In this document: piece by piece, positions 2,135 through 42,428 of the stretch
Layout of the letters: each line of letters opens with the position of its first letter
Numbering within the stretch: position 1 is the stretch's first letter
Origin: Desulfovibrio sp. ZJ369
GTDB taxonomy: Bacteria > Desulfobacterota > Desulfovibrionia > Desulfovibrionales > Desulfovibrionaceae
Length of the DNA stretch: 64,000 nt
Direction: 5' to 3'
Assembly (NCBI RefSeq): GCF_011039085.1
Contig: NZ_JAAKEI010000006.1
Location: 1 to 64,000, forward strand
Program-made: the position numbers and the translations under genes
Notes under the pieces: generated by a model
The model's database searches: none
Told to the model about the DNA's origin: nothing
What the model saw: only the letters and a program-made list of their open reading frames with translations

Positions 2135-2142
2135 GGCGGGCG

Positions 2143-3099: not shown

Positions 3100-3154
3100 G
3101 ATCTTCCTCAACAAGGCATGTTAGGCCTGAAATTGCCGTTAAGGCATCATGGAG

Positions 3155-3200
3155 AATTTTGCTTTTGAAATTGAATAATTTCAAAAGCAAAATTTTCTAG
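3155..3200. repeat. TA-GAGC family palindrome at the pyrF stop
   Basis: An 18-bp perfect inverted repeat (3155-3172 with 3177-3194, 4-base loop) ends in TTCTAG, where the CTA is the pyrF stop on the minus strand. It may also act as a transcription terminator for pyrF. Confidence 0.75.
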
Positions 3201-9351: not shown

Positions 9352-9386
9352 AGAGCGTTGAGCTAATTCCATCAGCAAAACGCTCT
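9352..9386. repeat. TA-GAGC family palindrome after the diguanylate cyclase
   Basis: Arms AGAGCGTT (9352-9359) and AACGCTCT (9379-9386), with an imperfectly paired interior. It directly abuts the next repeat, sharing TA at 9386-9387. Confidence 0.7.
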
Positions 9387-9387
9387 A

Positions 9388-9526
9388 GAGCATTTTCACT
9401 TTGAAAATGCTCTGCTGACGCGAAAGCGGCAGCCGCCGCAACGCGGCGTACATTCAGGCGAAAACCGCGTTTTTCGCCTGAATGCCACCTTTGACTTTCA
9501 TAAAAAGTCAAAGGTAATCTGCTCTA
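9388..9526. repeat. 139-bp composite repeat, copy 1, at the dnaE stop
   Basis: Three hairpins in a row: a GAGCATTTTC palindrome at the left, a central inverted repeat around ATTCAGGCGAAAA, and CTTTGACTTT/AAAGTCAAAG at the right. By eye it is identical over all 139 bases to 29237-29375. The CTA at its right end is the dnaE stop codon on the minus strand. Confidence 0.9.
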
Positions 9527-12500
9527 GGAAGCCCAGGCGGCCAATGCCTTGTCCAGTTCCGGCCCTGGCTGCACCTTCAGGGCGTCGTCCAGGCGCAGGT
9601 GACATTGGCAACCGTCCAGGAGAATCAGGGCGTGCGTTTCCACCGGGCCGGGATGGGTTTCAAGGATATTTTTCAGCGCCTGCATATCTTCCCGGCCGAG
9701 ACGGTGCGCCGGGATCTGCACGCAGACCGGCGTGTCGCTCTGGCCGCAGGCTTCAGCCAGGGGGCGCACGCTCTGGCCCAGCAGCTTGAGCTCGCGCGGA
9801 GCGTCTTCATTTTCCTCGTCCGTTTCCGGGGCAGTGTCGCCCTGGCTGTCCAGGCGGGCCGTGAGGCACAGGGGCTGCTCGGCCCGGATCAACTCGCGCG
9901 CTTCGGCATAGGCCCGCGGGAAAAAGGTCACTTCCGCGTGGCCGGTCAGATCCTCCACGCCCACAAAGGCCATGCGCTCGCCCTTGGATTTGGTGAGCAC
10001 TTCCTTGACGCTGGTCACCAGCACCGCGCTGGTGATTTCCGCCCCGGCAAACATTTCCCGCGCGTCTTCCAGGGTGGTCAGGCGCAGGCGGCGGATCTCG
10101 CGGCTGTAGGGCTGGAGTGGGTGGCTGGTGAGAAAAAAGCCCAGAGCTTCCTTTTCGCCCCGTAACTTCAGGTCGTCCGCCATTTCGGGCAGCCCGGCTT
10201 CAGGGCAGTCAAAGCCGATGCCGGGCAGGGGCGCGGCTTCAGCCGCAGGCGTCATGGCCAGCAGGGAAACCTGGTTGGAATTTTTATCCCTGGCCTTTTT
10301 TTGGGCGCGGGCCACCGCGGCTTCCACCGCGGCCAGCAGGCCCGCCCTGCTGACGCCGAAGCAGTCGCAGGCCCCGCCCTTGATCAAAGATTCCAGCACC
10401 CGCTTGGTGACCTTGCGCAGATTGACCCGGCAGCAGAGATCCAGAAAGGAGAGATATTCGCCGCCTCCCTTGCGCGCCTCCACAATTTCGCGGATGGCCT
10501 CGTCGCCCACGTTCTTGATGCCGCCCAGGCCGAAGATCACCTTGCCCGCATGCGCGGTGAATTCGCGCTGGCTCCGGTTCACCGAGGGCTGGACCACGTC
10601 GATGCCCATATCCTTGCAGCAGGAGACGTACTTCAGCAATTTGTCCTGGTTGCCCATTTCCGAGGTGAGCAGGGCGGCCATGAACTCCACCTTGTAATGC
10701 ACCTTGAGATAGGCCGTATAATAGGAGATCAGGGCGTAGGCCGCCGAATGGGACTTGTTGAAGCCGTATTCGGCGAATTTTTCCATCAGATCGAAAATTT
10801 CGTTGGCCTTTTCCTCGGCAATGCCGTTTTTTTCCGCGCCGGCCACAAAGGTCACGCGCTCCCTGGCCATGGCTTCGGCCTTTTTCTTGCCCATGGCCCG
10901 GCGCAGCAGATCCGCACCGCCCAGCGTATAGCTGGCGATGATCTGGGCGATCTGCATGACCTGTTCCTGATAGACAATGACGCCGTAGGTGTCGCGCAGA
11001 CATTCGGTAAGCGACTTATGCGGGTAGACCACCGGCACCTGGCCGTGCTTGCGCTTGATGAACTCTTCCACCATGCCCGACCCCAGAGGCCCCGGCCGGT
11101 AGAGCGCCAGCATGGCGATGACGTCCTCAAAGCAGGTGGGCCGCAGCATACGCAGATATTGGCGCATGCCAGAGCTTTCCACCTGAAACACGCCGTCCGT
11201 GTCGCCGCGGGCATAGAGATCATAGGTTGCGGCATCGGTGAGCGGCAGATTGTCCAGATCCGGCGGGGTCTGGCCCTGCAGGCTGATGTTGTCCAGAGTG
11301 TCCTGGATCAGGGTCATGGTCTTCAGGCCCAGAAAGTCGAATTTGACCAGCCCGACCTTTTCGGTCATGGGACCGTCGAACTGGGTCACAAGTTCGCCGC
11401 GCTTGCCCAGGTACAGGGGCAGGTATTCCTCCATGGGCTTGTCCGAGACAACCAGCCCGGCGGCGTGGGTGGAAGCATGCCGGGCCAGCCCTTCCAGGCG
11501 CAGGGCCGTATCCAGCAAATGCCTGACCGCCGGATCCTCCTCATAGAGTTTTTTCAGATCCGGCTCCATGTCCAGAGCCTTTTTGATGGTCATTTTGAGG
11601 TCGCCGGGCACCAGTTTGGCAATGCGATCCGTCTCCGCAAACGTCATGCCCAGAGCCCGGCCCACGTCGCGCACCACGCCCTTGGCCTTCATGGTGCCGA
11701 ATGTGGTGATTTGCGCCACCGAGCCCTCGCCGTAGGTCTCCACCATATGGCGGATCACGTCGCCCCGGCGGCGCTCGCAGAAGTCCACGTCAATATCCGG
11801 CAGGGAGACGCGCTCATTGTTCAAAAAACGCTCAAAAAGCAGATTATAGGGCAAAGGATCCAAGTTGGTGATGCGCAGGGCCCAGGCCACCAGGGAGCCC
11901 GCCGCGGAGCCGCGCCCCGGCCCTACCGGGATATGGTTGTTCTTGGCCCAGTTGATGAATTCCTGCACGATCAAAAAATAGCCGGGAAAGCCCATCTCCA
12001 GAATGACGTTGATTTCGTATTGCAGGCGTTGGCGATAGCGCGCCGGGTCGATGTTCTCGCGATCCGGATGCTTTTCCAGGCGCTTTTCCAGGCCGGCCTC
12101 GGCCAGCCGGCGGAACTCCGACTCCATGCTGGCCCCTTCGGGCAGTTGGTAGACCGGGAAATAATGGTGGCCGAAGTCCAGATCCACATTGCAGGATTCC
12201 GCAATGCGCATGGTATTGGCCAGAGCCTCGGGCACATGGGCGAAGGGCTTTTCCATCTCCTCCACGGACTTGTAGTAGAGCTCGCGCGTCTCAAAGCGCA
12301 TGCGTTTGGGGTCGTCCATGGTGGTCTGGGTCTGGATGCAGAGCAGAACCTCATGCGCGTCGGCGTCGTCGGCGTTGAGATAGTGGCAGTCGTTGGTGGC
12401 CACCAGGGGCAAGTTGGCGCTTTCCGCCAGTTCCAGCAGGGCGGTGTTCACGGTTTCCTGCTGGGCCAGGCCGTTGGATTGCAATTCCAGATAAAAGCGG

Positions 12501-13330: not shown

Positions 13331-14137
13331 ATGAATTCGGACATCAGCCTGCACGAGCAATGGTTTGCGGCATATGCCGCGCGAAAGCGCGCCAGGGAGC
13401 TCCACGATGCGGCTCCGCTGGATTTGAAGGCAGCGCACACGCGCGCTGTTCTGGAAAATGCCCGCCGCATGGCGCTGCACGAAAAATTCGAGCCGCCTCT
13501 GGTCAGAGCCTGCCTGCTGGCCGCGCTCTATCATGATCTGGGCCGCTTCGAGCAGTATCTGCGCTTTCATACTTTCCGGGATCGCGAGTCATGCAATCAC
13601 GGCCTGCTGGGCGTGAAAATTCTCAAGCGCGAGGCGCGGCTGGCCGGCGAAGACGCCCGGACGCGCAAAATCGTGCTGGCAGCAGTGGGCCTGCATAACC
13701 GCTTCGCCCTGCCCGCGCATCTGCCGCGCACTGTGGAACTGGCCGCGCATGTGGTGCGCGACGCCGACAAGCTGGATATTTTACGGATCATAGACGAGCA
13801 CTTGAGCGGGCCCGGACCCTGCAGCCCTACCGTGGTGCTGAATTTGCCGGATGATCCCGCCCAGTCGGGTGAAGCCGTGCTGCGCGCGGCTGCGGAAGGC
13901 CGTGTGGCCGCATATGCCGATTTGCGCAGCGTCAATGATTTTCGCGTGCTGCTCGGCACCTGGTTTTTTGACATGCATTTTGTGACCAGCCGCCGTCAAT
14001 TCGTGGAGGACGGTCATGCCCGCCGTCTTCTGGAGGCGCTGCCCCCGGTTCCGCCCTACGGCCCAGCGCGCGCGGCTCTGTTGGAGCGGCTGACCGGGGC
14101 TGAGCGCGGCGCGCCGGGCAGCCGCGCAAGAGCGTAA
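13331..14137 (+). CDS. HD-domain phosphohydrolase
   Basis: A 268-residue HD-superfamily protein. The metal ligands are visible: a His in KFEPPLVRACLLAALYHDLG (the HD pair at ~57-58), CNHGLLGVKIL and the downstream Asp in VVRDADKLDILRI (~137). Such proteins hydrolyse phosphate esters, often of nucleotides; the substrate is unknown. The start at 13331 is chosen as the first Met before the conserved part; no clear ribosome-binding site is seen there, so a start upstream (from 13244) is possible. A small gene follows after 2 bases. Confidence 0.8.
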   Translation: MNSDISLHEQWFAAYAARKRARELHDAAPLDLKAAHTRAVLENARRMALHEKFEPPLVRACLLAALYHDLGRFEQYLRFHTFRDRESCNHGLLGVKILKREARLAGEDARTRKIVLAAVGLHNRFALPAHLPRTVELAAHVVRDADKLDILRIIDEHLSGPGPCSPTVVLNLPDDPAQSGEAVLRAAAEGRVAAYADLRSVNDFRVLLGTWFFDMHFVTSRRQFVEDGHARRLLEALPPVPPYGPARAALLERLTGAERGAPGSRARA

Positions 14138-14139
14138 GC

Positions 14140-14637
14140 ATGTTGTGCGGCTGCGGCCCGGAACCACGTTTTTTCCCTTTGGCCGTCTTGCGCTCGCGCG
14201 TCCCCTGGCCGGCGCAAGCCAGCGCGGCCCTGCTCAATCCCTCTTGGGCCGAACTGCGGCGGCTCGCGGTGGAAACACAAGGCATTGCCCCCCGCGGCGC
14301 GCTCCGCATCCGCCTGGCGTACAGGCTTTTTTATCTGTCGTTCGAGGAAGGCGCGACTTTTCTGGCCCTGGCGGCTCAGGCCGGCGGCGAACTGCTGGCC
14401 GCGGATTTCAAACCCGCGGAACGCAATCTGGAGCTGCCCGCCGCGCTCCTCGTGCGTTGTCTGCCGCAGCTCTGGCCCTGTTTCGCAACCGGCCCGGTTT
14501 TTGCGGACTTTCTGTCCCGGGGCGGCCTTGAAGGATTGGCTCAGGAAGCCGGGCTGCGGGTGCTGGCGCGCCGTCCCTTGCTGGCAGGCGCGGCCGTGCT
14601 GCTGCGCCTCAGCCCTGTTGCCCGGAATTCACGCTGA
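14140..14637 (+). CDS. Unknown protein resembling the C-terminal half of a class I methyltransferase
   Basis: 165 residues. No S-adenosylmethionine-binding glycine motif is present. The spacing of LLAADFKPAERNLELP and the closing GGLEGLAQEAGLRVLARRPLLAGAAVLLRL resemble the last strands of methyltransferases of the UbiE type, where a substrate-side strand ends the fold. It may be a truncated methyltransferase or an unrelated Leu/Ala-rich protein. It starts 2 bases after the HD gene and overlaps the convergent gene at 14629-14637 by 9 bases. Confidence 0.5.
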   Translation: MLCGCGPEPRFFPLAVLRSRVPWPAQASAALLNPSWAELRRLAVETQGIAPRGALRIRLAYRLFYLSFEEGATFLALAAQAGGELLAADFKPAERNLELPAALLVRCLPQLWPCFATGPVFADFLSRGGLEGLAQEAGLRVLARRPLLAGAAVLLRLSPVARNSR

Positions 14638-15792
14638 CCCTGCGGGCCGGGGACGGCGCAGAAAGGTATCCGGGCCGAAGCTGCCGCGCAGCGCCACGCG
14701 CAGCAAAAGGCGGGCGGCATACCGGGCCGCGCCTTCCGTTGCATACCTGCCGAAGAATTTTCGCTGCACCAGGGGCAGGCATTGCGTATACTTGCGCCAG
14801 TATACGCCGTCTTCCATGCGTTTTTCCAGGGCGGGAAGCCGGTCGGTACTGAAGACGCCGCCCAGAAGCCCGGCCAGGCGTTGTTCTTCATTGTGCGCGG
14901 CAAGGGCGTTTTGCCAGGGCACAAATGTTTCTCGCGCCTGCGGCAGCGCCTGATGTTCCGTGAGCAGCGGCAGCACCGCAAGGCCCAGCATCAGGCAGGT
15001 GGTGAAAACGCCCGAAAGCGGAGAGGCGAGAATAACATCGGCTGCAAAGCGCATGCAGCCCGGGGCAATGGTCAGGGTATCCTGAATCGTGGCTGTGGAT
15101 GGGGCTCCCAGCAAAATCTGGTGCTCGGGAAGAAAATAATAAGGCTTGAAAATGACGAAATAATGCCGCGACAGGTGCAACACGGTTCGGATTTGCTCCT
15201 GCGGGCAGTCAAGCAGGCCGCCGCAGTAAAAGACAATCCTTTTGCCGCAAGGTATGGCGATATTCAGGCCTTGCGCCAATTCCCGGCGCAAGGCGTTTTT
15301 GTCTTCATGACGGCGTGTTTCCCACTCTCCCAACTGGTAAAGCCCGGCATGGGCGAACTCCTGGACGGCTTGCGCATTTTCCGCCCTGCCGGACGGCGGC
15401 CGGGCGGCCGCGCCTGCCGCCTGACGGGCCTGGCGCTCATACATGCACAGAAAATGGCTGTATTCGGCATGCGCAAGCCGGGGCAAAAAGGTTGTGGCAT
15501 GCAGCATAAGCACGCGCCGTTCGGCCAAAAGGGAAAGATGGGGATGATTGAGCAGATCCGGCACGCCCGCCACGGCCAGCGCGCCATAGGGGCCGCGCGC
15601 CGCGTCGTCCGGCAAGACGGCGTAGCCTTGCCCTCGCAGAGCCGCGAGCGTGGGGTTGGGCGGATTTTGATCCGCGCACAAGGCGCGCGGCACGAGAATA
15701 TCCACCTCATCAGCGGGCAGATGAGACAGGACATGCCGGAAATAGAGCAGACTGCGGGCCGCGAGATAAACGGCAAGGTGCGGGCTGGGCAT
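14629..15792 (-). CDS. Putative CDP-dependent transferase (GT-B / glycerophosphotransferase-like)
   Basis: 387 residues, last gene of the phosphoramidate operon, starting directly after the kinase stop. Two half-domains are suggested: an N-terminal part to ~190, and a C-terminal part beginning KRIVFYCGGLLDCP with FVIFKPYYFLPEHQ (~230) and MRFAADVILASPLSGVFTTCLMLG (~265-290). The last two stretches recall the KPHP and D-ADILISDYSS positions of CDP-glycerol glycerophosphotransferases. Those enzymes take a phospho-group from a CDP-activated donor, which would fit transfer of a CDP-activated phosphoramidate to a sugar. This is inference from weak similarity; an ordinary glycosyltransferase is the main alternative. 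No signal peptide or TM segment. Confidence 0.5.
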   Translation of the reverse strand: MPSPHLAVYLAARSLLYFRHVLSHLPADEVDILVPRALCADQNPPNPTLAALRGQGYAVLPDDAARGPYGALAVAGVPDLLNHPHLSLLAERRVLMLHATTFLPRLAHAEYSHFLCMYERQARQAAGAAARPPSGRAENAQAVQEFAHAGLYQLGEWETRRHEDKNALRRELAQGLNIAIPCGKRIVFYCGGLLDCPQEQIRTVLHLSRHYFVIFKPYYFLPEHQILLGAPSTATIQDTLTIAPGCMRFAADVILASPLSGVFTTCLMLGLAVLPLLTEHQALPQARETFVPWQNALAAHNEEQRLAGLLGGVFSTDRLPALEKRMEDGVYWRKYTQCLPLVQRKFFGRYATEGAARYAARLLLRVALRGSFGPDTFLRRPRPAGSA

Positions 15793-16317
15793 TTATTTTT
15801 CTCGCAGAAGCTTCAGAAGCGCGTCCAGGCATTGCGCCGGAGACAGCGCGGCCGTATCCAGAGTCAAATGCGGGGCAAGGGGCACATCCACCGGCGTGTC
15901 CTGCCCGGCCATCTGGCGCATTTCTCCCTGCGCTGCGGCTGCATACAGGCCTTTGGGGTCGCGGGCGCGCCGCACCTCTTCCGGGCTTTCCAGCCAGACT
16001 TCCAGGTAGCCCGGCACATGGGCGCGGTTCCAGGCATGCACCTCATGGAAGAGGGAAATGGTGGCAATGACCACCGTGTGCCCCTGATCGGCCAGCAGCT
16101 TGCAGAAACGGGCATAGATCATGGCCAGTCGGAGGCGGCTTTGCCGGTCAAAGCCGGAAGTCTCCGTGCCGAGTACGGCGCGCAGATCGTCGCCGTCCAA
16201 CAGCACGGCCCCGGGCAGATGCGGCATCAGGGCGCGGGCCAGAGTGCTTTTGCCCGCGCCCGAAAGACCGGTGATCCAGATCACGCGCCCGCAGGATGAA
16301 ATCCCTGACACTGGCAT
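15793..16317 (-). CDS. APS-kinase-like kinase, probable cytidine diphosphoramidate kinase (Cj1415-like)
   Basis: 174 residues of the adenylylsulfate kinase fold: Walker A GLSGAGKSTLARAL (~18-31), LDGDDLRAVLG (~39-49, as in CysC) and a YLEVWLESPEEVRRARDPKGLY stretch corresponding to the DPKGLY motif of APS kinases. In sulfate reducers, APS is reduced directly and a PAPS-forming kinase is not needed for respiration. With the neighbouring genes, the better model is C. jejuni Cj1415, which phosphorylates the 3'-OH of cytidine diphosphoramidate. It starts 2 bases after the methyltransferase stop and is followed without gap by the putative transferase. Confidence 0.8.
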   Translation of the reverse strand: MPVSGISSCGRVIWITGLSGAGKSTLARALMPHLPGAVLLDGDDLRAVLGTETSGFDRQSRLRLAMIYARFCKLLADQGHTVVIATISLFHEVHAWNRAHVPGYLEVWLESPEEVRRARDPKGLYAAAAQGEMRQMAGQDTPVDVPLAPHLTLDTAALSPAQCLDALLKLLREK

Positions 16318-16319
16318 GC

Positions 16320-17078
16320 TTACTCCTTGCGCCGCGCGATCCAGGCGCGCGTGAGATATTCGGCCTCAATGACCGGAATATCCCTGGTTACTTCCCGAAT
16401 ATGCTCAATAAAACGGGCAAAGCGTTCTTCACCGGCCTGCACGCGCACGTCGTTGACCGATTCCCAGAGGCCGATATACCGCTCCGGGCTTTGCAGTTCC
16501 GTATGCCGTCCTTCCAGATACAGCACATCCGCGAATTCCGCACGCTGAAGCAGGCGCTCCGTCAGTGTGTTGCAGAACTCGGAACGGCCCGAGGACACCC
16601 GTTTCAGTTCCGGCACAAGCGTGTGCAGATATGCTTCTATTTCCACCAGCAGTGGATTGGCCTCAAAACGACGTGTGTTCCAGAGCGCCATGAACAGGCC
16701 GCCGGGTTTGAGAATCCGGTGAAATTCCCTGACCGCCGCGTCAAAGTCCGGCCAGTGAAAGGAGGACGCCATGCAAACCATGTCGCAGGAGGCAGCGGAC
16801 AGGCCGGTGGCCTCGGCATTGCCCTTGCGCCAGAGAATGTCCAGATTTGCGTTTTGTTTCTCTCCTGCCATGCGCATGGCATCGTTGGGTTCCACCGCGA
16901 TGACGCGCACACCCCTGGCCGCCAGCTGACGCGACCAGATGCCCGTGCCCGCGCCTACGTCAGCGCAAAGTCTCCCTCTCTGAGAGAGCGACAGAAAAGC
17001 CTCCAGCACAAAGGGCGCGTATCCGGGCCGGTAGCGGGCATAGTTCTCTGCAAGATCTGAAAAATCACCATGTTTCAT
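16320..17078 (-). CDS. Class I SAM-dependent methyltransferase of the phosphoramidate cluster
   Basis: 252 residues. Motif I is CADVGAGTGIWSRQLAARG (~38-56), motif II VIAVEPNDAMR, with the motif IV region CDMVCMASSFHWPDFDAAVREFHRILKPGG. The ATG at 17078 has AAGGAAG upstream; an in-frame start at 17153 lacks one. The C. jejuni phosphoramidate locus contains two methyltransferases (Cj1419, Cj1420) thought to make the O-methyl group; this could be the counterpart, but a general small-molecule methyltransferase cannot be excluded. It is followed after 2 bases by the APS-kinase-like gene. Confidence 0.85.
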   Translation of the reverse strand: MKHGDFSDLAENYARYRPGYAPFVLEAFLSLSQRGRLCADVGAGTGIWSRQLAARGVRVIAVEPNDAMRMAGEKQNANLDILWRKGNAEATGLSAASCDMVCMASSFHWPDFDAAVREFHRILKPGGLFMALWNTRRFEANPLLVEIEAYLHTLVPELKRVSSGRSEFCNTLTERLLQRAEFADVLYLEGRHTELQSPERYIGLWESVNDVRVQAGEERFARFIEHIREVTRDIPVIEAEYLTRAWIARRKE

Positions 17079-17199
17079 AGACGATCTTCCTTCAGGAAAA
17101 GCGCGGCGATGCGCACAGGCCGGGCGCAGCAGCCCTCTCCGGATCTGGCGCAACAGCGCGCTTCCTTTTGATCAGCGCTTTGCAGTGCGCTGTAGTGGA

Positions 17200-17227
17200 A
17201 AGATATTCTGTCCCCAAACATTTTCAA
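17200..17227 (-). promoter_or_regulatory. Possible sigma-70 promoter before the methyltransferase
   Basis: On the minus strand: -35 TTGAAA (17227-17222), 16-base spacer, -10 TATCTT (17205-17200). It lies in the 161-bp gap between the cytidylyltransferase and the methyltransferase, so the last three genes may also be transcribed separately. Confidence 0.35.
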
Positions 17228-17239
17228 GCGCACACCATT

Positions 17240-18025
17240 CTAGCGCCGCCAGTCATGCGGCCAGCTTTCGCTGCGCAGAGCCTGCTCATAGCGCCGCAGG
17301 TCCTCCTGATTGTCCACTTCGCACCAGCGCCCCTGCACGGGCACGGCCCCCACGCGGATGCCCCTGCCGATCAAAAGGCGCAGAAAGCCGGTCATATCCA
17401 TGCGCGCCACAGCCTCGCCCAGTTCGGCGCAGGTTTGGCGAATCTGCGCCCAACCGTGAGGCGTCACCCGAATCAGGCCCATATATTGTCCCTGAACTTC
17501 TGCAATATTTTGCGGCTTGCCGCCGATTTCACGCAACAGACCGTCCGTCTGGCGAAAGGTCTCCGCGTCAAGCAAGGGATCGTTGAAACGCAGTCGCCAG
17601 AGCTGCTCCCAGCACAGATCACAGGCCACGGCAAGAGGCTCCGCGCAGGCTGACAGGGCGCGCACATGCTCCGGCGGATAGACAATATCGGAATAACTGA
17701 TCGTGGCCGCGTCCTGCCCCTCTGCAAAGGCCCTTTCCAGCCACGGCCCGGCGCAGAGCAGGGAGGAGAGCATATTGCTCTGTTCCCAGCGCGGATTCTC
17801 CACGGTTTCAAACGATCCGGCCTCAAGCCCGGCGGCTTCGGGCGTGAGGATGTGGGACAGATAGCCGCGAACCACCAGGATGCGCGCGGCTCCGGCTCCC
17901 CGCAGGGCCTCGCACTGCCAGCGCAGCAGCGGCTTGCCCGCGATCTCCACCAGGCACTTGGGCTTTCGGGCCGTGAGTTCGCGCAAACGCGATCCGCGCC
18001 CGGCTGCCAGAAGAACGGCAATCAT
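17240..18025 (-). CDS. Nucleotidyltransferase, probable CTP:phosphoglutamine cytidylyltransferase (Cj1416-like)
   Basis: 261 residues of the sugar-nucleotidyltransferase fold. The N-terminal LLAAGRGSRLRELTARKPKCLVEIAGKPLL has the GxGxR nucleotide-binding loop and catalytic Lys; SYSDIVYP (~115) would hold the metal-binding Asp, and VQGRWCEVDNQEDLRRYE the second acidic pair. In C. jejuni, Cj1416 joins CMP from CTP to L-glutamine phosphate. The start lies 1 base after the stop of the PEP-synthase-like gene, tight coupling that ties the two together. A choline- or other phospho-cytidylyltransferase role is the alternative. Confidence 0.82.
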   Translation of the reverse strand: MIAVLLAAGRGSRLRELTARKPKCLVEIAGKPLLRWQCEALRGAGAARILVVRGYLSHILTPEAAGLEAGSFETVENPRWEQSNMLSSLLCAGPWLERAFAEGQDAATISYSDIVYPPEHVRALSACAEPLAVACDLCWEQLWRLRFNDPLLDAETFRQTDGLLREIGGKPQNIAEVQGQYMGLIRVTPHGWAQIRQTCAELGEAVARMDMTGFLRLLIGRGIRVGAVPVQGRWCEVDNQEDLRRYEQALRSESWPHDWRR

Positions 18026-18026
18026 C

Positions 18027-20399
18027 TCAGTTGTCCTCGTGCAGGGGCATGATCAGCTTGCCGGCGCAGTCCAGAAGGCCGGAGCGGGCCTTGCAGATGC
18101 GCTCAAACAAAATGCCCCCGCAACCGATGGCCGCGGGCAGATTATATTCCGCGCAGCGGATGGCCATATGCGAGTTGGTTCCGCCGTAGCGGGTGACAAG
18201 CCCGGCAATGCCGCGCGTGAACAGCCAGTCATAGCCCGGATCCGCGCTTTCGATGCAGACAATGGCCCCGTTCAGCCTGAGGCCCGCGCCGCTGCCCGTC
18301 AAATGGATCACCGGCGCTTCCAGGCGCTTGGAGGTGATGAAATTGGGCACGCTGCGCTGCTGGGCCGCCACATAGACGTCGCGCGGCGAGCGGATCAAAT
18401 GTGAGAGACGGAAAGAATGCGCCAGCTCGTATCCCTGACGCTGGGCCTCGATCAGCTTGAGATAGTATTTGCGGGCCTCGGCGGGCAGGGGCGCGTACAG
18501 GCCGTTGATCACCATATCCACATTGAGCATGGAGATCTGCTCGCGCGTCAGTTCCAGCGTCTCGCCCCAGGCGGCCAGGTTCTCAAGCACAGCGCAGATA
18601 TGGCGGCTGAAGACGAATTTGATCCACTCCCGCCCGGCTATGGCCGTGCGCGCATAGTTGAGAAGATGTTCGGGCCCGCAGTCCAGGCCCGCCTCATCCA
18701 GCAGGGCGGCCAGGGCTTTGCGCTCCGCGGCGCGAAGACGGAAACGCGAGGGCGCCTGGCGCGATTCGGGCAGATCGGCGATTTCAAAAAGATCTTCGCG
18801 TTGCGCGTAGCAGGGGGTCATGATGTCATAGGTGCCGGGCCGCAGATGCCCGTATTGGCGCAGAAAAGCGCGCCGGGCCGCCCCGCTTTGGCAGGCTGCG
18901 CGGAAATCGCGCGACAGTTCGCCGGACACCGTGCGCACGCTGCATTTGAAGGCCTGGAGGCGTTCCGGACTCAACGCGCCGCGCCGAACCGCCGAGCGCA
19001 GCAGGGATTCGGCCATGAACGCATGGCGCGCGGCAATGGAAAAGGGCAGGGTGCCGAGCTGGCGGCATTCTTCCAGCAAGGGCGAAAGCGTTGCGACCAG
19101 GGCAAAGCCCGAAGAAGCCGTGGGCCGGGGCGGCATAAGCGCCTTTTGTTTTTTCTCCAGGGCCTGCGCGTCGGCCAGCGCCGCGTCAAGGCTGCCGCCG
19201 GGCTTCAGCGCCCTGTTGGTCAGGCGCCGCAAACCTGCCTTGAAGGCCAGGCGCTGCGCCGGAGAGAGCAGGCCCGGATAGCGCGCGTCGAAACTTTGGT
19301 CAAAATCGAAATCCAGCACAGTATGCGCGATTTCAAATTCCACTTTGTCATGCAGCGCCGGGTTGGCGTCCAGCCTGTCCAGCCAGGCGTTGATCAGCTT
19401 TTCGCAGGCGGCGGCAGGCAGATCCGCGGGCAAAAAGGAGTTGAAGCTCGCCCGCACGTCGATATATGGCCGCCCGGCCAGGGAGAGCATCAGCTCCGTG
19501 GGCGGCAGGCAACGGTAGCCCATGCGCTCCCGCGCCAGGCTCCAGATGCGGCTGGTGATCAGTTCCCGATAGAGGCTCATGGCCAGGGGCCGCGGGGTGA
19601 CGCCGATGATTTCCGCCGGGTTCCAGTCCGGCATGATTCCGAGCAGCGTGCGCTGCCCGAAAAGTTCCGGGCGTGGCCGCATGATTTCCTTGACATAGGC
19701 TTCCACATGCCGAATGCGGCGTGAAACGCCCAGACCCGCGTTGGCGCGCCAACGCTTGGCGGCGCAGATGCGCCGCACTTGCAGAAGATGCACGTTCTCG
19801 GCGCTGTCCACGGCAAATTCCACGTCCAGCGGCGTCTGGCCGTAATGGCGCTCCAGCCCGCGCAGCATCTCCAGCACGCGCCGCAGGCGCGGCGAGTCGA
19901 AATATTCCGGCTTGACGCCCTTGTAAATGCAGACGGTCTTGCTGACGCCAATGCCGCCGGTGACAGTGTCGGTGCGGCCAGAAACATCGTCATAATTGAT
20001 CACATAATACGGCGAGCCGTCTTCCAGAGCGCGGGTCATGGCCACACCGCACATGGTCACTTCGCCGATCATGGGCTGCACCAGCACCTGATCACGCTCG
20101 TCGCGAAAAACGGAAATCACACTGTCGATGGCGCTGCCCAGTTCGGACGCATCCTGCGAAGGCACATGCAAAATGCTCTGGAAAGCGCCGGCCAGGGATT
20201 GCTCGTTGCCGTCTTCGCAACGGGCCGAGGAGCGCACGGCGAGGTTGCCGCGCGGAAAGCGGCTCTGGATGGCGCGCAGCACCTGATGCGGATCGTTGCG
20301 CCATTGGCGGGCTTCAAAAAAATAGCTCGGCGGCACGGGAAAGCCCTGATCCGCGAGGCAGGTCAGGGTTTCTGCCTTGGTTCCAAAAGATTGACGCAT
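18027..20399 (-). CDS. PEP-synthase-like L-glutamine kinase (Cj1418-like)
   Basis: 790 residues. The N-terminal ATP-binding domain of the PEP synthase/PPDK type contains LAVRSSARCEDGNEQSLAGAF (~50-70) and the VLVQPMIGEVTMCGVAMTRA stretch. A long central domain follows, then the C-terminal swivelling phosphohistidine domain with GGTNSHMAIRCAEYNLPAAIG (His at ~744). The PEP-binding barrel of PEP synthase is absent, so a phosphate acceptor other than pyruvate is expected. C. jejuni Cj1418 has this architecture and similar size and makes L-glutamine phosphate, AMP and phosphate from ATP and glutamine. The ATG at 20399 has GGAAGGAG upstream; a sigma-54 promoter lies ~35 bases before it. Confidence 0.85.
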   Translation of the reverse strand: MRQSFGTKAETLTCLADQGFPVPPSYFFEARQWRNDPHQVLRAIQSRFPRGNLAVRSSARCEDGNEQSLAGAFQSILHVPSQDASELGSAIDSVISVFRDERDQVLVQPMIGEVTMCGVAMTRALEDGSPYYVINYDDVSGRTDTVTGGIGVSKTVCIYKGVKPEYFDSPRLRRVLEMLRGLERHYGQTPLDVEFAVDSAENVHLLQVRRICAAKRWRANAGLGVSRRIRHVEAYVKEIMRPRPELFGQRTLLGIMPDWNPAEIIGVTPRPLAMSLYRELITSRIWSLARERMGYRCLPPTELMLSLAGRPYIDVRASFNSFLPADLPAAACEKLINAWLDRLDANPALHDKVEFEIAHTVLDFDFDQSFDARYPGLLSPAQRLAFKAGLRRLTNRALKPGGSLDAALADAQALEKKQKALMPPRPTASSGFALVATLSPLLEECRQLGTLPFSIAARHAFMAESLLRSAVRRGALSPERLQAFKCSVRTVSGELSRDFRAACQSGAARRAFLRQYGHLRPGTYDIMTPCYAQREDLFEIADLPESRQAPSRFRLRAAERKALAALLDEAGLDCGPEHLLNYARTAIAGREWIKFVFSRHICAVLENLAAWGETLELTREQISMLNVDMVINGLYAPLPAEARKYYLKLIEAQRQGYELAHSFRLSHLIRSPRDVYVAAQQRSVPNFITSKRLEAPVIHLTGSGAGLRLNGAIVCIESADPGYDWLFTRGIAGLVTRYGGTNSHMAIRCAEYNLPAAIGCGGILFERICKARSGLLDCAGKLIMPLHEDN

Positions 20400-20430
20400 A
20401 CTCCTTCCCCTTGGCTGTGTACAGAGCATA

Positions 20431-20446
20431 AGCAAGAGTCGTGCCA
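20431..20446 (-). promoter_or_regulatory. Sigma-54 (-24/-12) promoter before the glutamine kinase gene
   Basis: The minus strand reads TGGCACGACTCTTGCT, matching TGGCACG-N4-TTGCW at every defined position, with exactly 10 bases between the GG and GC pairs. The predicted start (~20420) leaves a ~20-base leader with a good ribosome-binding site. It implies control by RpoN and an enhancer-binding activator. The rest of the 169-bp gap shows no other feature. Confidence 0.65.
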
Positions 20447-20568
20447 TATTCAGGGGCAAAGAGTGTCACGCTGGGGAAGCGCACAGGAGGCGGAAAGGGC
20501 GGCGAGGAAAAGACGTTCACGCGCCTTTTGCCGCAACGCGCCACAGCCATGGCGACTCTCCGGCAGAT

Positions 20569-21213
20569 TCAAGGGACAAGCCCCCAATGACGCCGGAAGA
20601 GTTCCAGATCCGCGGGATGCGCTTCAACCTCCCGTTCCGGATGCCACATGAGGCCGAGCCAGGGCAGGTTGCGGGCGCGCAGGGCCTCCACGCTGTTGTC
20701 CGCTGCGCAGAGCGCCAGACTTTCCAGTTGCGGCGGCAAAACTTCGGGGAACAGGCCCCACTGATGGTAGGAGTTGACCTCTCGCGTTTCGGATGCCGCT
20801 TGCGGCCCCCGCCCGATGATGGGATGCCTGGCGCGCACATGCCGCTCGGCCGCCAGCCGGGCCAGGCCCCCGCCGAAGAAATGCTGCAACATCTGCATGC
20901 CCCGGCAGATGCCGATCACCGGCAGATTCCGGGCCGCGGCCCAGGCCAGCAACGCTTGTTCCGTGCGGTCGCGCTCCGGCGTGACGCCGAGGTCGTCGCC
21001 GCCGGAAAGCACCAGGGCATTCACGCCAAGGTTTTGCGCCAGGGCCGGGCAGTCCTCCTGCACATTGGGCAGCATGACCCAGGGCAGGCCTCCGGGGCTG
21101 AGAGCGCGGAAAAAGCGGGCCCAATCCCGGGCCAGAGCGTCGCGCTGCTCGCCGCTTGCGGGATCGCGCGTCACCCGCATGGTGATGCCCGGCAAGACGT
21201 GTTGCGCCGTCAT
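20569..21213 (-). CDS. Class I glutamine amidotransferase-like hydrolase, probable gamma-glutamyl-CDP-amidate hydrolase (Cj1417-like)
   Basis: 214 residues of the peptidase C26 / PuuD type. The nucleophile is in VIGICRGMQMLQHFFGG (Cys ~101) and the catalytic His-Glu pair in LMWHPEREV (~190); NSYHQWG is the family's substrate-side motif. Members hydrolyse gamma-glutamyl amides. In C. jejuni, Cj1417 splits CDP-L-glutamine into glutamate and cytidine diphosphoramidate. The start overlaps the stop of the DUF3179 gene (ATGA). Without its neighbours, gamma-glutamyl-GABA hydrolase would be the default annotation. Confidence 0.85.
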   Translation of the reverse strand: MTAQHVLPGITMRVTRDPASGEQRDALARDWARFFRALSPGGLPWVMLPNVQEDCPALAQNLGVNALVLSGGDDLGVTPERDRTEQALLAWAAARNLPVIGICRGMQMLQHFFGGGLARLAAERHVRARHPIIGRGPQAASETREVNSYHQWGLFPEVLPPQLESLALCAADNSVEALRARNLPWLGLMWHPEREVEAHPADLELFRRHWGLVP

Positions 21214-22508
21214 GGCAACGGCGTTCCCGGCTGGCGTTGCAGAGGCGAGGGCGGAGACTGCACCGGAGCCTGGGGCGTGTCCGGGGCAGTGTCCGGGCCG
21301 GGCGCGGTCAGGTCCTTGGGAGGATCATCCCGGCCGGGCGGGTTGAGGGAAAGCAGATTCGCCGGCACTTCGCCCGGACCGGGTATCACAAAGGTTTCCG
21401 GGTTCAGGCTGTACCAGGCGAACCACATGGAGTAGCCGCCGAAATACTGCTTCATGGACGCGCCCTGCATATTTCCTTTCAGAGCCTTGCCCGTGGCCGG
21501 ATCCCAGACGCTGCGGGTGTTGAGATCCACAAGGCGGCCGTATTGGCTTACAAACAGAAAAGGCTCGGCCCAGATCTGGCGGTTGAAGATCCGCACCACG
21601 TCCAGCCGCGGATCATGCACGGCCAGCAGGGCGGAGGGGCCAAGAAAGAAATTCACCGCGCCTTTCTTCCTGACGTAGCCGATATCCACCGCCAGCAGCA
21701 GGCCCTCGTATTCCAGACAGAGCATGGGCGTTTTGCGGGGAAAGCGCCGGTCAATGCGCTGCACCGGATAGACCAGAATGTCGTTGTCGTAATAGGTGCC
21801 CTTTTTCAGGTAGTTGCCGTAGGGGTCACGGCCGTAAGGGCGGTTGCCGCGCGGCTGGGCCAGGACCGGGGCGTCGGGGTATACGGTGCGCGCCGCGCCC
21901 CAGGTCGTCCAGTACACGGGGATGGTGGGCATGCCCCGGCCCAGCAGGGGGCCTTCAAAGGCCATGCCCGTTGCCTGTAGCCAGAGGCTGCCGGAATTGC
22001 GGTCAATAAGCACGCTGTTGCCGTCGTAAAGGCGGCCTTCAAGATCGAAAATCAGATTCAGTCCGCCCATGGATGCGTTGTAGGCCATCAGCGTCCCGGT
22101 AATGGGGCAGTAGGTGATGGCATAGGCCACGTCGTCGATAAGCTCGTTGACCACCTGATGCCAGACCATGAAGCGTTGGGGGAAAATGCGCGGGCCGTCC
22201 GGCAGCATAACCACAAAGACCACATCCTCCCGGCTCATGTTCAGGTCCGCGTCCTGCACGCGGTCATAGCGCGGCCGGTAGAGCGAAGGAATGGCCCCGT
22301 AGCTGACGCTGGTTTCCGTCAACTTGCTGGCGATTGCGGCCAGTTGCTGCAGATTTTGGGGGCGGGCCTGGGCGGGCGCAACTGCCGTTGCCCAGATCAG
22401 GCAGAAGAGCGCCATGCAGGCGACCAGCCCGGAAACTGAAACAGCTTGGCGCGAAGCGGGGCTCTGAAGGCCGTGCACGCGTGCCACGGCGGCATCTGCT
22501 TTGCTCAA
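21210..22508 (-). CDS. DUF3179 family exported protein
   Basis: 432 residues. An N-terminal hydrophobic segment (~26-48, ending APAQA) is a signal peptide or anchor, so the protein is probably periplasmic. The body matches DUF3179: VWHQVVNELIDDVAYAITYCPITGTLMAYN and YDGNSVLIDRNSGSLWLQATGMAFEGPL. The conserved Cys in the ITYCPITGT motif is present. The C-terminal ~50 residues are Pro-rich. The biochemical role is unknown. The start is TTG, overlapping the rmlD stop (TTGA), and the stop overlaps the amidotransferase start, so it is the second gene of the operon. Confidence 0.82.
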   Translation of the reverse strand: MSKADAAVARVHGLQSPASRQAVSVSGLVACMALFCLIWATAVAPAQARPQNLQQLAAIASKLTETSVSYGAIPSLYRPRYDRVQDADLNMSREDVVFVVMLPDGPRIFPQRFMVWHQVVNELIDDVAYAITYCPITGTLMAYNASMGGLNLIFDLEGRLYDGNSVLIDRNSGSLWLQATGMAFEGPLLGRGMPTIPVYWTTWGAARTVYPDAPVLAQPRGNRPYGRDPYGNYLKKGTYYDNDILVYPVQRIDRRFPRKTPMLCLEYEGLLLAVDIGYVRKKGAVNFFLGPSALLAVHDPRLDVVRIFNRQIWAEPFLFVSQYGRLVDLNTRSVWDPATGKALKGNMQGASMKQYFGGYSMWFAWYSLNPETFVIPGPGEVPANLLSLNPPGRDDPPKDLTAPGPDTAPDTPQAPVQSPPSPLQRQPGTPLP

Positions 22509-23395
22509 CGCGCTCCCTCACTGCCGGGCTGAGCGCCGGGCACATATTCGCTGAACAGAAAATCGCGCAGGGCCTGGGGCCAGGGCCGGGGCTTTTTGCC
22601 CAGAAATTCGCTCAGTTTGCCGGTATCCAGCACGGAATAGGCGGGGCGCTGGGCCTTTTGCGGCCATTGCGCCGAGGCCACGGGTTCCACCCGGCAGGGC
22701 GAGGCCGTGAGGGCAATGGCTTCGCAGGCCAGCTCGCACCAACTGGCCTGGCCGCCGTTGACCGCATGCCAGATCCCCGTGGCTTGCTTTTCCGCCAGAT
22801 CCACGCTCCATTGGGCCAGATCCAGGCTGTACGTCGGGGAGCCGGTCTGATCATGAACCACACTGATCGCATCGCGGCGGCGGCAGGCCTCAAGAATAGT
22901 TTCCACAAAATTTTTGCGCCCCGGGCCAAACAGCCAGGCTGTGCGCACCACGCAGGCCCGTTCGGGCAGGCCGCGCAGCACGGCTTCCTCGCCTGCAAGT
23001 TTGGTGCGGCCGTAGACTGAAGCGGGATGCGGCGCGTCTTCTTCGGTCCAGGGTTGCTGGCGCGGCCCGGAAAAGACGAAATCCGTGCTGAAGTGCACAA
23101 GGTGGCCCCGCCCGCGCGCCTTGAGAATCCGGGCCAGGGCGTCGGGCAATGTGCGGTTCACGAGCAAGGCTTCTTCGGGATGCTCCTCGGCCTCGTCCAC
23201 CTGGGTCCAGGCGACGGCGTTGAAGACCACATCCGCGTCCACGGCCGCCAGACGGGATTCGAGAAAAGCCATGTCCTGCAGATTGCCGTCTGCCCGGCCC
23301 AGCGTTTCGGCCTGCCAGCCGCGGGCCGTGAGCACGCGCTGCAACGCCTGCCCCAAAAGACCTGTCGCGCCGCCCAGAATCAGCGCCTTCGCCAT
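22505..23395 (-). CDS. rmlD: dTDP-4-dehydrorhamnose reductase family protein (RmlD)
   Basis: 296 residues, an extended short-chain dehydrogenase. LILGGATGLLGQALQRVL (NAD(P)-binding GxxGxxG) starts the protein; STDFVFSG and the YGRTKLAGE (YxxxK) catalytic motif follow. RmlD makes dTDP-L-rhamnose from dTDP-4-dehydrorhamnose; no rmlA, rmlB or rmlC is in the window, so another sugar substrate is possible. Start chosen at 23395, after GGGGAGG. First gene of the operon leading to the phosphoramidate genes, which suggests a surface polysaccharide context. Confidence 0.87.
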   Translation of the reverse strand: MAKALILGGATGLLGQALQRVLTARGWQAETLGRADGNLQDMAFLESRLAAVDADVVFNAVAWTQVDEAEEHPEEALLVNRTLPDALARILKARGRGHLVHFSTDFVFSGPRQQPWTEEDAPHPASVYGRTKLAGEEAVLRGLPERACVVRTAWLFGPGRKNFVETILEACRRRDAISVVHDQTGSPTYSLDLAQWSVDLAEKQATGIWHAVNGGQASWCELACEAIALTASPCRVEPVASAQWPQKAQRPAYSVLDTGKLSEFLGKKPRPWPQALRDFLFSEYVPGAQPGSEGAR

Positions 23396-23718
23396 CGGAA
23401 CCTCCCCGGCGACCGCAGCCCGTCCATGCGCGGGACGGAGTCCAGTAGCCATATTGGGCACTGTAGCCTTTCGGGGGGACAGGGGTCAATATCCGCCTTT
23501 ACGGTCGGCGCGGCCTTGCTCCAGGCCGCAGGCCGCGCAGTGAAGCGCGCTTTTAACGCAATTTCACTTTGGAATCGCTGCGGCGTCTGCTCCCGCAGCC
23601 CAGGCTGCCGCTCTTGTGAAAGTATTTTTGAGATGCCGCCGCTCCGTTACGGTCAACCGGCTTTCGTGCGGGCTGCGGTCGTCTTGCCTCGCCTGAGCAA
23701 GTGTCGTACAAAAAAGGT
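23396..23718. other. Divergent intergenic region rmlD / cbiK
   Basis: 323 bp between divergent genes. No cobalamin-riboswitch core, repeat or clear promoter hexamer pair was recognised. Confidence 0.3.
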
Positions 23719-26726: not shown

Positions 26727-27869
26727 TCAGACTGCGGGCTGCGGCTCCACCGGCGCATAGTTCATGGTGCGCTGCACAGGCGTAAAGCCCGCGGCGCGGA
26801 TCACTTTGTGAATGTCCGCCCGGCTCATGCTGTAGGACACGCCCGCGGCTGCGACCACGTTTTCCTCAATCATCAGGGAGCCGAAATCGTTGGCGCCGTA
26901 AAACAGGGCCAGTTGGGCAATCTCAGGGCCCATGGTCACCCAGGAGGCCTGAATGTTGGGCACGTTGTCCAGCACCAGGCGCGATACGGCCAGAAGCCGC
27001 AGGTAGGCCGGAGCGGGCAGAGGAGCGCAATGAATGCGGGTGTGCGCGGGCTGGAAGGTCCAGGGGATGAAGGCCGTGAAGCCGTGGGTGCGATCCTGCA
27101 CGGCGCGCACGGCAAAGAGGTGATCCAAACGGTGGCCCGGTTCCTCCTCATGGCCGAACATCATGGTCGCCGTGGTGCGCAGGCCCAGTTTATGCGCCTC
27201 TTCCATGACCATCAGCCATTGATCCGCGGAACATTTGTTGGGCGAGACGCGCGCGCGCACTTCGTTGTGCAGAATCTCGGCCCCGCCGCCGGGCAGGGAA
27301 TGCAGGCCCGCATCCTTCAGGCGGCGCAGCACTTCGGGCACGGAAAGGCCGAATTTTTGCGACCAGAAAAATATTTCGGGCGGGGAAAAGGCATGGATAT
27401 GCAGCCCGGGCCAGTTTTCGCGCAGCCAGCGCAGCAGATCCTCATACCATTCCAGAGGCAAATCCGGGTGATGCCCTCCTTGCAGGAGGATCTGCGTGCC
27501 GCCCAGGCGCAGGGTTTCCTCCACTTTGGCGGCCATTTCCTCGCGGCTGATCAGATAGCCGTCCTTATGGCCCGGCGGCCGGAAAAATGCGCAGAAGCGG
27601 CAGCCGCAGACGCAGACGTTGGAATAATTGATGTTGCGATCGCCCACATAGGTAACCACGGGTTCGGGATGCAGGCGCAGCCGCAGACCGTGAGCCAGGG
27701 CGGCCAGGGTGTGCAGGCTTGCCTGGTAATACAGGGTTTCGGCGGCCGCGCGGTCAAGGCGCGCCGGGGCCGCTGAGCCTGTGTCGCCTATGCGGGCGGC
27801 CAGCGCGGCAGCCTCGCGCACGGCGGGGCTTTCTTCAAAAGGGCTGTGGGCAGGGGCAAATGTGGCCAT
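26727..27869 (-). CDS. mqnC: Cyclic dehypoxanthinyl futalosine synthase MqnC
   Basis: 380 residues, radical-SAM enzyme of the futalosine pathway. The cluster motif is CVCGCRFCAFFR (CxxxCxxC, ~residues 84-95). GGTQILLQGGHHPDLPLEWYEDLL is typical of MqnC, as is SLPGGGAEIL. It cyclises dehypoxanthine futalosine. Its ATG overlaps the mqnE stop (TGATG) with GGAGGTG upstream; mqnA follows. The order mqnE-mqnC-mqnA makes one operon. Confidence 0.93.
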   Translation of the reverse strand: MATFAPAHSPFEESPAVREAAALAARIGDTGSAAPARLDRAAAETLYYQASLHTLAALAHGLRLRLHPEPVVTYVGDRNINYSNVCVCGCRFCAFFRPPGHKDGYLISREEMAAKVEETLRLGGTQILLQGGHHPDLPLEWYEDLLRWLRENWPGLHIHAFSPPEIFFWSQKFGLSVPEVLRRLKDAGLHSLPGGGAEILHNEVRARVSPNKCSADQWLMVMEEAHKLGLRTTATMMFGHEEEPGHRLDHLFAVRAVQDRTHGFTAFIPWTFQPAHTRIHCAPLPAPAYLRLLAVSRLVLDNVPNIQASWVTMGPEIAQLALFYGANDFGSLMIEENVVAAAGVSYSMSRADIHKVIRAAGFTPVQRTMNYAPVEPQPAV

Positions 27870-29014
27870 CAGCGCACCTCCGCACTGTTCCGGCCGTCAG
27901 AAGGCAGGGTTTCAAAAACCGCGTTGCGTCGCACAGGCTCAAAGCCGGACTCGCTGATCATGCTTTCCAGCTCGTTGATGGTCAGGCCCTGGCTGGACTG
28001 AGCCCCGGCCATGTGGCCGATGTGTTCCTCCACAATGGTGCCGTCCAGATCGTCGGCCCCGTACCACAGGGCGGTCTGGGCCAGTTTGGGGCCCAGCATG
28101 ATCCAGTAGGCCTTGATATGCGGGATGTTGTCCAGCAGCAGGCGGGAGACGGCCACGGTGCGCAGTTGATCCAGCCCGCGCTGCGGGCCGAGACGCTCGT
28201 CCGGCAGCTTGAGCCTGCTGTTTTCAGTCAGAAAGGGCAGGGGGATGAAACAGGTGAAGCCGCCGCTCTTATCCTGCTGATCGCGCAGGCGGCACAAATG
28301 ATCCACGCGCTGGGCCGCGTTTTCCAGGTGGCCGAAAAGCATGGTGCAGTTGGTTTTGATGCCCAGGCCGTGCGCTTCGCCGGAAATGCGCAGCCAGGCC
28401 GCGGCGTCGGCCTTGTGCGGGCAGAGCCGCGGGCGCAGCTCCTCGTCGAAAATTTCCGCGCCGCCGCCGGGCAGCATCGTCAGGCCAGCGGCCTTGAGCC
28501 GTTGGAGCACTTCCAGGCTGCTGATGCCCTCCAGTCGGGCGAAATGCTCGATTTCCACGGGCGTGAAAGCTTTGATCGGCAATGTGGGGTTAACGGCCCG
28601 CACCGCGCGCAGCACGTCCTCGAACCATTCTAGGCGCAAGCCCGGATGGCAGCCGCCCACAATATGCAGTTCGTCCAGGCGCAGGGAGCTTTGATCCGCA
28701 GTTTTCAGCCGGGCGAGAATGTCCTCCCTGCTCAGGACGAACGCGCCGGGCTCGTTTGCCGCGTCGCGGCGGAAAGCGCAGAAAACGCAGCCGTTCACGC
28801 AGACATTGGTATAGTTGATCTGACGGTTGACCACATAAAAGGCCTTGCGCCCGTGCAGACGGCAGCGCGCATGCAGCGCCAGGGCTCCCACGGCGGTGAT
28901 GTCCGGGCAGTCGAACAGGGCCAGGCCGTCATCGAAGCTCAGGCGGCGGCCGTCGAGCACTTTTTCATGGATGGACGAAAGGCCCAGATCGGCGTAGTAT
29001 GCGGCGTCAAGCAT
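27869..29014 (-). CDS. mqnE: Aminofutalosine synthase MqnE
   Basis: 381 residues, radical-SAM enzyme that joins the MqnA product to the adenosyl group of SAM. Cluster motif CVNGCVFCAFRR (~72-83). ELHIVGGCHPGLRLEWFED, IKAFTPVEI and YGADDLDGTIVEEHIGHMAG are characteristic of MqnE and separate it from the neighbouring MqnC. First gene of the minus-strand mqn operon; mqnD lies divergently 460 bp away. Confidence 0.93.
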   Translation of the reverse strand: MLDAAYYADLGLSSIHEKVLDGRRLSFDDGLALFDCPDITAVGALALHARCRLHGRKAFYVVNRQINYTNVCVNGCVFCAFRRDAANEPGAFVLSREDILARLKTADQSSLRLDELHIVGGCHPGLRLEWFEDVLRAVRAVNPTLPIKAFTPVEIEHFARLEGISSLEVLQRLKAAGLTMLPGGGAEIFDEELRPRLCPHKADAAAWLRISGEAHGLGIKTNCTMLFGHLENAAQRVDHLCRLRDQQDKSGGFTCFIPLPFLTENSRLKLPDERLGPQRGLDQLRTVAVSRLLLDNIPHIKAYWIMLGPKLAQTALWYGADDLDGTIVEEHIGHMAGAQSSQGLTINELESMISESGFEPVRRNAVFETLPSDGRNSAEVR

Positions 29015-29178: not shown

Positions 29179-29236
29179 AGGACGCGCAGGATGCGCCGGA
29201 ATCGCCCGCTTCCCGCACGGCAAGTGAACCCGGCTG

Positions 29237-29375
29237 GAGCATTTTCACTTTGAAAATGCTCTGCTGACGCGAAAGCGGCAGCCGCCGCAACGCGGCGTAC
29301 ATTCAGGCGAAAACCGCGTTTTTCGCCTGAATGCCACCTTTGACTTTCATAAAAAGTCAAAGGTAATCTGCTCTA
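29237..29375. repeat. 139-bp composite repeat, copy 2
   Basis: By eye identical to 9388-9526 over all 139 bases, same orientation. Here the left end is preceded by CTG instead of TA, while the right end GCTC is followed by TA. Confidence 0.9.
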
Positions 29376-29477
29376 AGACGTATGGCGCGGCGCGCGCGTT
29401 TCGCGGAGCGTGGTTTTTGAAAGAGCGCAGTGGGCAGACTATGCCCGTCCGGCGTCTCCTGTCAATGTGAGGAAACT

Positions 29478-41225: not shown

Positions 41226-41327
41226 TGTCCGCTCCCCGCCGCGTCAGGAAAAAAGGGCTGATCCGTCGCTATGCCGGTCCGGGCGTGGACTCCTTTCTCA
41301 TGGCTTCGCCCTGCCAGAGCGTTTCGC

Positions 41328-41476
41328 TAGAGCATTTTGCTTTTGAAATTATTCAATTTCAAAAGCGGCGCTGCCATCATTTCGCCTGAAAAGCGTGGTT
41401 TTCAGGCTCATTCGGCGCGGGCGTCCGCTCCCGCGGCCGCCAGAGCGGTTGCTGTTTTCAACAGCAAACCGCTCTA
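41328..41476. repeat. Composite repeat, short form (149 bp)
   Basis: Begins TAGAGCATTTTGC, has a 12-bp stem (41339-41350 with 41355-41366), an imperfect GCCTGAAAAGCGTGG hairpin, and ends with the perfect palindrome 41442-41475 followed by A. Corresponds to 42429-42697 without that copy's 120-bp insertion. Confidence 0.8.
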
Positions 41477-42377: not shown

Positions 42378-42428
42378 GTCCAACTCCTTGCGAAGGAAAG
42401 ATGATTACAATGTTGCGTGCTGACCCGC

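Follow-up and report, generated by a model that had tools for sequence, protein, structure and literature searches.

Phosphorus–nitrogen (P–N) bonds are rare in biology. In Campylobacter jejuni, a phosphoramidate group is used by phages as a receptor and influences serum resistance. The four C. jejuni pathway enzymes have been characterised, according to the summaries and citations given in PMC6429109 and PMC11924219. Their cassette consists of mpnD (170 amino acids, aa), mpnC (253 aa), mpnB (200 aa) and mpnA (779 aa), with two methyltransferases of 253 and 257 aa (33% identical to each other) beside mpnA, and the transferase of the O-methyl phosphoramidate (MeOPN) group is 609–642 aa long (PMC7901785). 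The phosphoramidate is known both with and without the methyl group, and the glutamine kinase was still termed C. jejuni-specific in a 2022 review (PMC9561416). Phosphoramidates of lipopolysaccharide (LPS) have been reported in Xanthomonas and Shewanella, as cited in PMC3907429, and related genes have already been noted in archaeal Borg elements in a 2025 paper (PMC12660748). For the type A flagellin glycan of Clostridioides difficile, it has been proposed that a cytidylyltransferase and a TagF-like transferase (cd0242/cd0244) attach a CDP-carried phospho group to a sugar (PMC10714395). Here, we analysed a stretch of 64,000 nucleotides from Desulfovibrio sp. ZJ369 (NZ_JAAKEI010000006.1, positions 1–64,000 of the forward strand; hereafter the window). 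As judged from the gene sequences, a minus-strand run in the window very probably encodes an mpnABCD-type four-enzyme core for the synthesis of cytidine diphosphoramidate (CDP-amidate), accompanied by a methyltransferase and, probably, by a transferase.

The genes of the locus are transcribed in the order DUF3179 gene, hyd, gk, ct, mt, k3 and gt. An earlier note on this DNA had described a five-gene minus-strand run from hyd to k3 with 1–2 base spacing at several joints, and both points were confirmed, as all five open reading frames (ORFs) are present at their coordinates, with one base between gk and ct and two bases between mt and k3. Further tight joints are found between k3 and gt (0 bases) and between the DUF3179 gene and hyd (4-base overlap). 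The gt gene, which lies beyond the limit of the earlier note and abuts k3, probably belongs to the unit.

The hyd gene (20569–21213, minus strand) encodes a C26-type glutamine amidotransferase of 214 aa (Pfam Peptidase_C26), the proposed gamma-glutamyl-CDP-amidate hydrolase (MpnB/Cj1417-like). Its top NCBIfam family was NF045546, gamma-glutamyl-CDP-amidate hydrolase (1.8e-27, near full length; second family 3.9e-11), which was also matched by all 14 cassette hydrolases scanned. Residues Cys103, His191 and Glu193 are present, and among the cassette relatives the Cys is found in 73 of 74 and the His and Glu in 74 of 74 each. The 790-aa product of gk (18027–20399, minus strand), the proposed L-glutamine kinase (MpnA/Cj1418-like), contains the Pfam domains PPDK_N and PEP-utilizers and no phosphoenolpyruvate (PEP) barrel. 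It matches the unnamed family NF004508/PRK05849 over its full length with 884 bits (cut-off 501), and its catalytic His744, in the motif NSHMAIRCAE, is kept in 83/83 relatives. The start of gk is ATG 20399, preceded by GGGGAAGGAG; TTG 20459 merely gives the longest ORF. The ct gene (17240–18025, minus strand) encodes a nucleotidyltransferase of 261 aa (NTP_transf_3, 2.6e-17), the proposed phosphoglutamine cytidylyltransferase (MpnC/Cj1416-like). The nearest solved structure is CTP:phosphocholine cytidylyltransferase (1jyk, 3.7e-9), and the catalytic Arg13 and Lys23 are present, each kept in 74/75 relatives. The proposed CDP-amidate 3′-kinase (MpnD/Cj1415-like) is the product of k3 (15793–16317, minus strand), a P-loop kinase of 174 aa resembling adenylyl-sulfate (APS) kinase (Pfam APS_kinase), with the P-loop Lys kept in 63/64 relatives. 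It scores 169 bits on PRK05541, over the cut-off of 127, and 109 bits on TIGR00455 apsK, under the cut-off of 138.7; the three cassette kinases of other lineages that were scanned likewise lie over the former cut-off and under the latter. A sequence-based structure search with the pathway enzymes identified no solved pathway-enzyme structure.

The wider distribution of the genes was analysed in a gk-alignment scan of 84,980 species, which gave 486 relatives, of which 80, none from Campylobacter, were kept as loci; gk was the sole basis of selection. At a distance of at most 6 kb from gk, hyd and ct were each present in 71 of the 80 loci and k3 in 61; 57 loci had all three (39 of 48 when only those with complete flanks are counted). 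The loci come from Pseudomonadota, Thermodesulfobacteriota, Bacteroidota, Omnitrophota, Planctomycetota, Verrucomicrobiota, Acidobacteriota, Bacillota and other phyla. The gene set is also clustered in ~12 relatives, and since clustering recurs both there and in most of the 80 independent gk loci, the arrangement is not due to chance. Fusions of hyd to gk (L087), ct to gk (L114 and L115), gk to hyd (L155) and k3 to a ~190-aa companion protein tie pathway steps together physically. In L155 (MT837632.1, positions 652–3687), deposited as a Bacteriophage sp. of human faecal origin, the 1011-aa gk–hyd fusion stands beside bacterial-looking housekeeping genes, and apart from the fused hyd there are no pathway neighbours; the record is probably a misfiled bacterial fragment. 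The linkage across gk loci, the near-invariant catalytic residues, the hyd–gk and ct–gk fusions and the family matches are the grounds on which we regard the CDP-amidate core as very probable. They uphold the four-step CDP-amidate reading of the earlier note, as the core enzymes travel together across phyla.

In the proposed pathway, gk would N-phosphorylate glutamine to phosphoglutamine, which ct would join with CTP to give gamma-glutamyl-CDP-amidate. Hyd would then cleave off glutamate to release cytidine diphosphoramidate, and k3 would phosphorylate the 3′-OH of its ribose. Finally, gt would move the phosphoramidate onto a hydroxyl of a surface glycan, and mt would methylate the phosphoramidate, before or after transfer, to methyl phosphoramidate. 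We infer all of these substrates, the functions assigned to mt and gt and the surface-glycan acceptor; for the step order and the substrates, the basis is enzyme family, co-occurrence and conserved residues.

The gt gene (14629–15792, minus strand) encodes a protein of 387 aa, proposed on the basis of its predicted fold and its co-occurrence with gk to be a CDP-amidate:glycan phosphoramidate transferase of the GT-B, TagF-like type. It had no match in Pfam or NCBIfam. Among 149 related genomes, gt was found in six, all of which carry gk (hypergeometric p 4e-6, phylogeny not controlled), and the significance is weaker than this value because the genomes are related. A cassette on a plasmid of the cockroach-gut deltaproteobacterium Smac51 has the order gtA-gk-hyd-ct-gtB-mt-k3, in which both gtA and gtB are gt homologues. 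An AlphaFold2 model of gt computed with these two homologues added reached a pLDDT of 77 and a pTM of 0.74; fold matches of a first model, built from six sequences (pLDDT 49), were discarded as meaningless. A Foldseek search with the later model matched a structure of TagF, a polymerase of wall teichoic acid, with CDP-glycerol (3l7k, E 3.7e-7, TM 0.58) and, ranked lower, TarL with CDP-ribitol (8va1). The top row of the search, 8b6f, was set aside because of its rmsd of 12.7, TagF superposing better. The model thus indicates a GT-B fold with reasonable certainty and suggests that gt may use a CDP-linked donor. Such a donor is supported by CDP-glycerol-transferase-like genes of PF04464, which are found no more than 6 kb from gk in 14/80 other loci and adjoin the core in Vibrio alfacsensis, and by the TagF-like protein of C. 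difficile that has been proposed to be a CDP-threonine transferase (PMC10714395). A transferase of the sulfotransferase type, suggested by L022, was rejected for the source genome (G000), in which none was found. We regard gt as the strongest phosphoramidate transferase candidate and lean slightly towards its acting as one. A broader proposal, which we make only tentatively, is that gt represents a family, so far unrecognised, of small transferases that have a TagF fold and use (3′-phospho-)CDP-amidate, and that the cassette is a modular, multi-phylum P–N decoration system, the product of which would vary with its swappable partners.

The mt gene (16320–17078, minus strand) encodes a methyltransferase of 252 aa that is predicted to use S-adenosylmethionine (Methyltransf_11, 5e-18) and is proposed to be a phosphoramidate O-methyltransferase. 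Its family is found in 26/80 gk loci, and it is 58–83% identical to most of the cassette copies. The source genome has a single methyltransferase of this kind, and L031 and L082 have two, the second being 36–38% identical to the window type. Mt, to which the earlier note had given no role, fits the pathway because two methyltransferases of similar size stand beside mpnA in C. jejuni (PMC7901785), and it is rather likely that mt methylates the phosphoramidate. Three cassette types could be distinguished, characterised by the methyltransferase (26/80), by the ~190-aa protein and a formyltransferase (28 and 30 of 80) or by an SGNH-like protein (6/80). The ~190-aa companion (e.g. L023:9625–10197, and 28 other loci) has no match in Pfam, NCBIfam or PHROGs; it is nearly always accompanied by the formyltransferase, to which it is fused in L066, L069 and L070, and is sometimes fused to k3. 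In L022 (4643–5833, minus strand) and in six of the 80 loci (L086, L090, L100, L101, L112 and L117), a protein of ~400 aa with a GDSY(AF) motif, SGNH-like by eye, takes the place of this pair. The methyl and 190-aa types overlap in one locus (Fisher 3e-5, kinship not corrected), and the cassette-type labels are clustered on the gk tree yet often switch (12 changes for mt compared with 22 in shuffles).

Several observations weigh against the reading of the run as a CDP-amidate core with its own methyltransferase and transferase. No P–N product of any Desulfovibrio is described in the papers retrieved. Hyd scores 97 bits on NF045546, for which the equivalog cut-off is 250 bits, and the families of k3 and ct include members with other substrates. 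The joints between hyd and gk (~169 bases) and between ct and mt (161 bases) are loose, and with gaps of more than 160 bases a single transcript is not established. As for gt, it lies away from gk in the other five genomes that carry it, and it does not have the PF04464 signature, a profile–profile comparison with a PF04464-like family in hhalign giving a non-significant probability of 1.8%. With 387 aa, it also differs in size from the C. jejuni MeOPN transferases of 609–642 aa (PMC7901785). This difference would also suit an arrangement in which the core makes cytidine diphosphoramidate, gt acts as a conventional glycosyltransferase or transfers another CDP-linked group, and the true phosphoramidate transferase is encoded elsewhere in the genome. 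We take this to be a serious possibility, at somewhat less than an even chance. GT-B sugar enzymes (UDP-N-acetylglucosamine 2-epimerase, MurG and MGD1) fit the gt model nearly as well as TagF does, and in two genomes, G043 and G111, sequence inspection showed that gt occupies the corresponding locus close to rmlD-DUF3179, where the core is missing; in G111, dnaE is nearby as well. At this locus, gt stands beside an unknown 513-aa ORF and a ct paralogue (L145:7688–8488, minus strand, and L144 ~13957–14752, minus strand) that is 50% identical to the window ct and has the catalytic Arg13 and Lys23 replaced by Ser and Thr; genes in L144–L147 were called by GC position, naive ORFs there being mostly antisense. 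From its sequence, this paralogue is possibly a pseudo-enzyme partner of gt. Counting for gt as the phosphoramidate transferase, on the other hand, are its zero spacing from k3, the presence of gk in 6/6 gt genomes, the two gt relatives in the Smac51 cassette and the finding of no PF04464 or PF13469 transferase in the source genome.

The acceptor may also be questioned. Upstream of the cassette there are only rmlD and the DUF3179 gene, with no abutting capsule or O-antigen block, and cytidylyltransferases of COG1213 take several phospho-substrates (PMC12275187), so the genes could make a phosphoramidate small molecule or a CDP-linked group other than an amidate instead of decorating a surface polymer. 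We consider this unlikely, as many relatives have glycan genes around them (DegT aminotransferase, NeuB, CMP-sugar-type cytidylyltransferase, Wzt and CDP-glycerol transferase) and the presence of gk and hyd indicates the glutamine route. That the run is a chance row of unrelated household enzymes, namely a PEP synthase or rifampicin phosphotransferase, a gamma-aminobutyrate (GABA)-type hydrolase, a phosphocholine cytidylyltransferase and an APS kinase, is highly improbable, even though relatives are automatically annotated with such names. The earlier note had predicted that these genes would be scattered over unrelated names, and relatives are indeed labelled pyruvate phosphate dikinase, GABA hydrolase and adenylyl-sulfate kinase. 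Its own alternative, rifampicin as the acceptor of gk, failed: gk scores 27 bits on the rifampicin phosphotransferase model (cut-off 999), through the mobile domain only. The lack of a PEP barrel in gk, co-clustering in 57/80 loci and the gene fusions likewise speak against unrelated functions. K3 is under the apsK cut-off, and a second APS-kinase-like gene is present in the source genome on a different contig (C97 ~11836–12429; L160:8837–9427), which falls under both the apsK and the PRK05541 cut-offs. A CDP-amidate core, presumably serving a surface glycan, remains the reading that we prefer.

The distribution of gk is sporadic, as it was found in 21/149 genomes among the window's relatives and in 6/395 sampled phylum-wide. 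In the gk tree, Desulfovibrionaceae copies occupy several positions, with Bacteroidota, Bacillota and Myxococcota copies between them, and this scatter suggests horizontal transfer. At the DUF3179 locus of a sister genome (G028, L033:8880–10704) there is only a remnant of the cassette, in which hyd is broken into two frames and the beginning of gk runs straight into the last part of k3. The DUF3179 protein (21210–22508, minus strand; PF11376, 5.6e-74) is an older resident of the locus, and upstream of it lies an rmlD-type dTDP-4-dehydrorhamnose reductase gene (22505–23461, minus strand; TIGR01214 257 bits, over the cut-off). Sequence inspection showed that DUF3179 also adjoins rmlD in L144 and L145, there without hyd and gk. 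The rmlD gene hints at a rhamnose-containing polymer, although it also occurs there without the cassette. Elsewhere in the window, a 145-nt repeat, 99% identical, was found at 9385–9529, adjoining dnaE, and at 29234–29378, adjoining the ORF at 27869–29014, and two exact repeats of 88 and 64 nt, each present twice (41325–41476 and 42426–42697), flank ~1 kb.

The pathway itself is already known; the value of the present locus lies in its host, in how widely the family is spread and in gt, newly put forward here as a specific transferase candidate. With 486 gk relatives in one scan, the pathway is apparently encoded in hundreds of genomes of many phyla, where automatic annotation conceals it. The cassette genes might account for the LPS phosphoramidates of Xanthomonas and Shewanella, genera outside this analysis, and the presence of the cassette in bacteria of the gut and the environment matters for recognition by phages and by the immune system.

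When the locus is compared with mpnABCD of C. jejuni (Cj1418–Cj1415) on the basis of enzyme family and published protein sizes, the same four enzyme families are apparent, with sizes of 174, 261, 214 and 790 aa here and 170, 253, 200 and 779 aa in C. jejuni. A methyltransferase of 252 aa stands alongside, and a second one, 36–38% identical to the window type, is found in relatives of the same genus, similar to the C. jejuni pair with its 33% identity. The source genome differs in having one methyltransferase, and its cassette in the order hyd-gk-ct-mt-k3, in having no surrounding capsule cluster and in having no long homopolymer tracts such as those that switch C. jejuni genes. With TagF and TarL of PF04464, gt has the predicted GT-B fold and the proposed CDP-linked donor in common. 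It differs in having no Pfam match and in its proposed cargo, which would be an amidate and not a polyol, and it has KP(Y/F) in place of the His-Pro (KxHP) that is kept in PF04464-like neighbours. In the C. difficile cd0242/cd0244 system, the cargo is phosphothreonine and the model contains no glutamine kinase or hydrolase, but a cytidylyltransferase is paired with a TagF-like transferase, as is proposed here for ct and gt.

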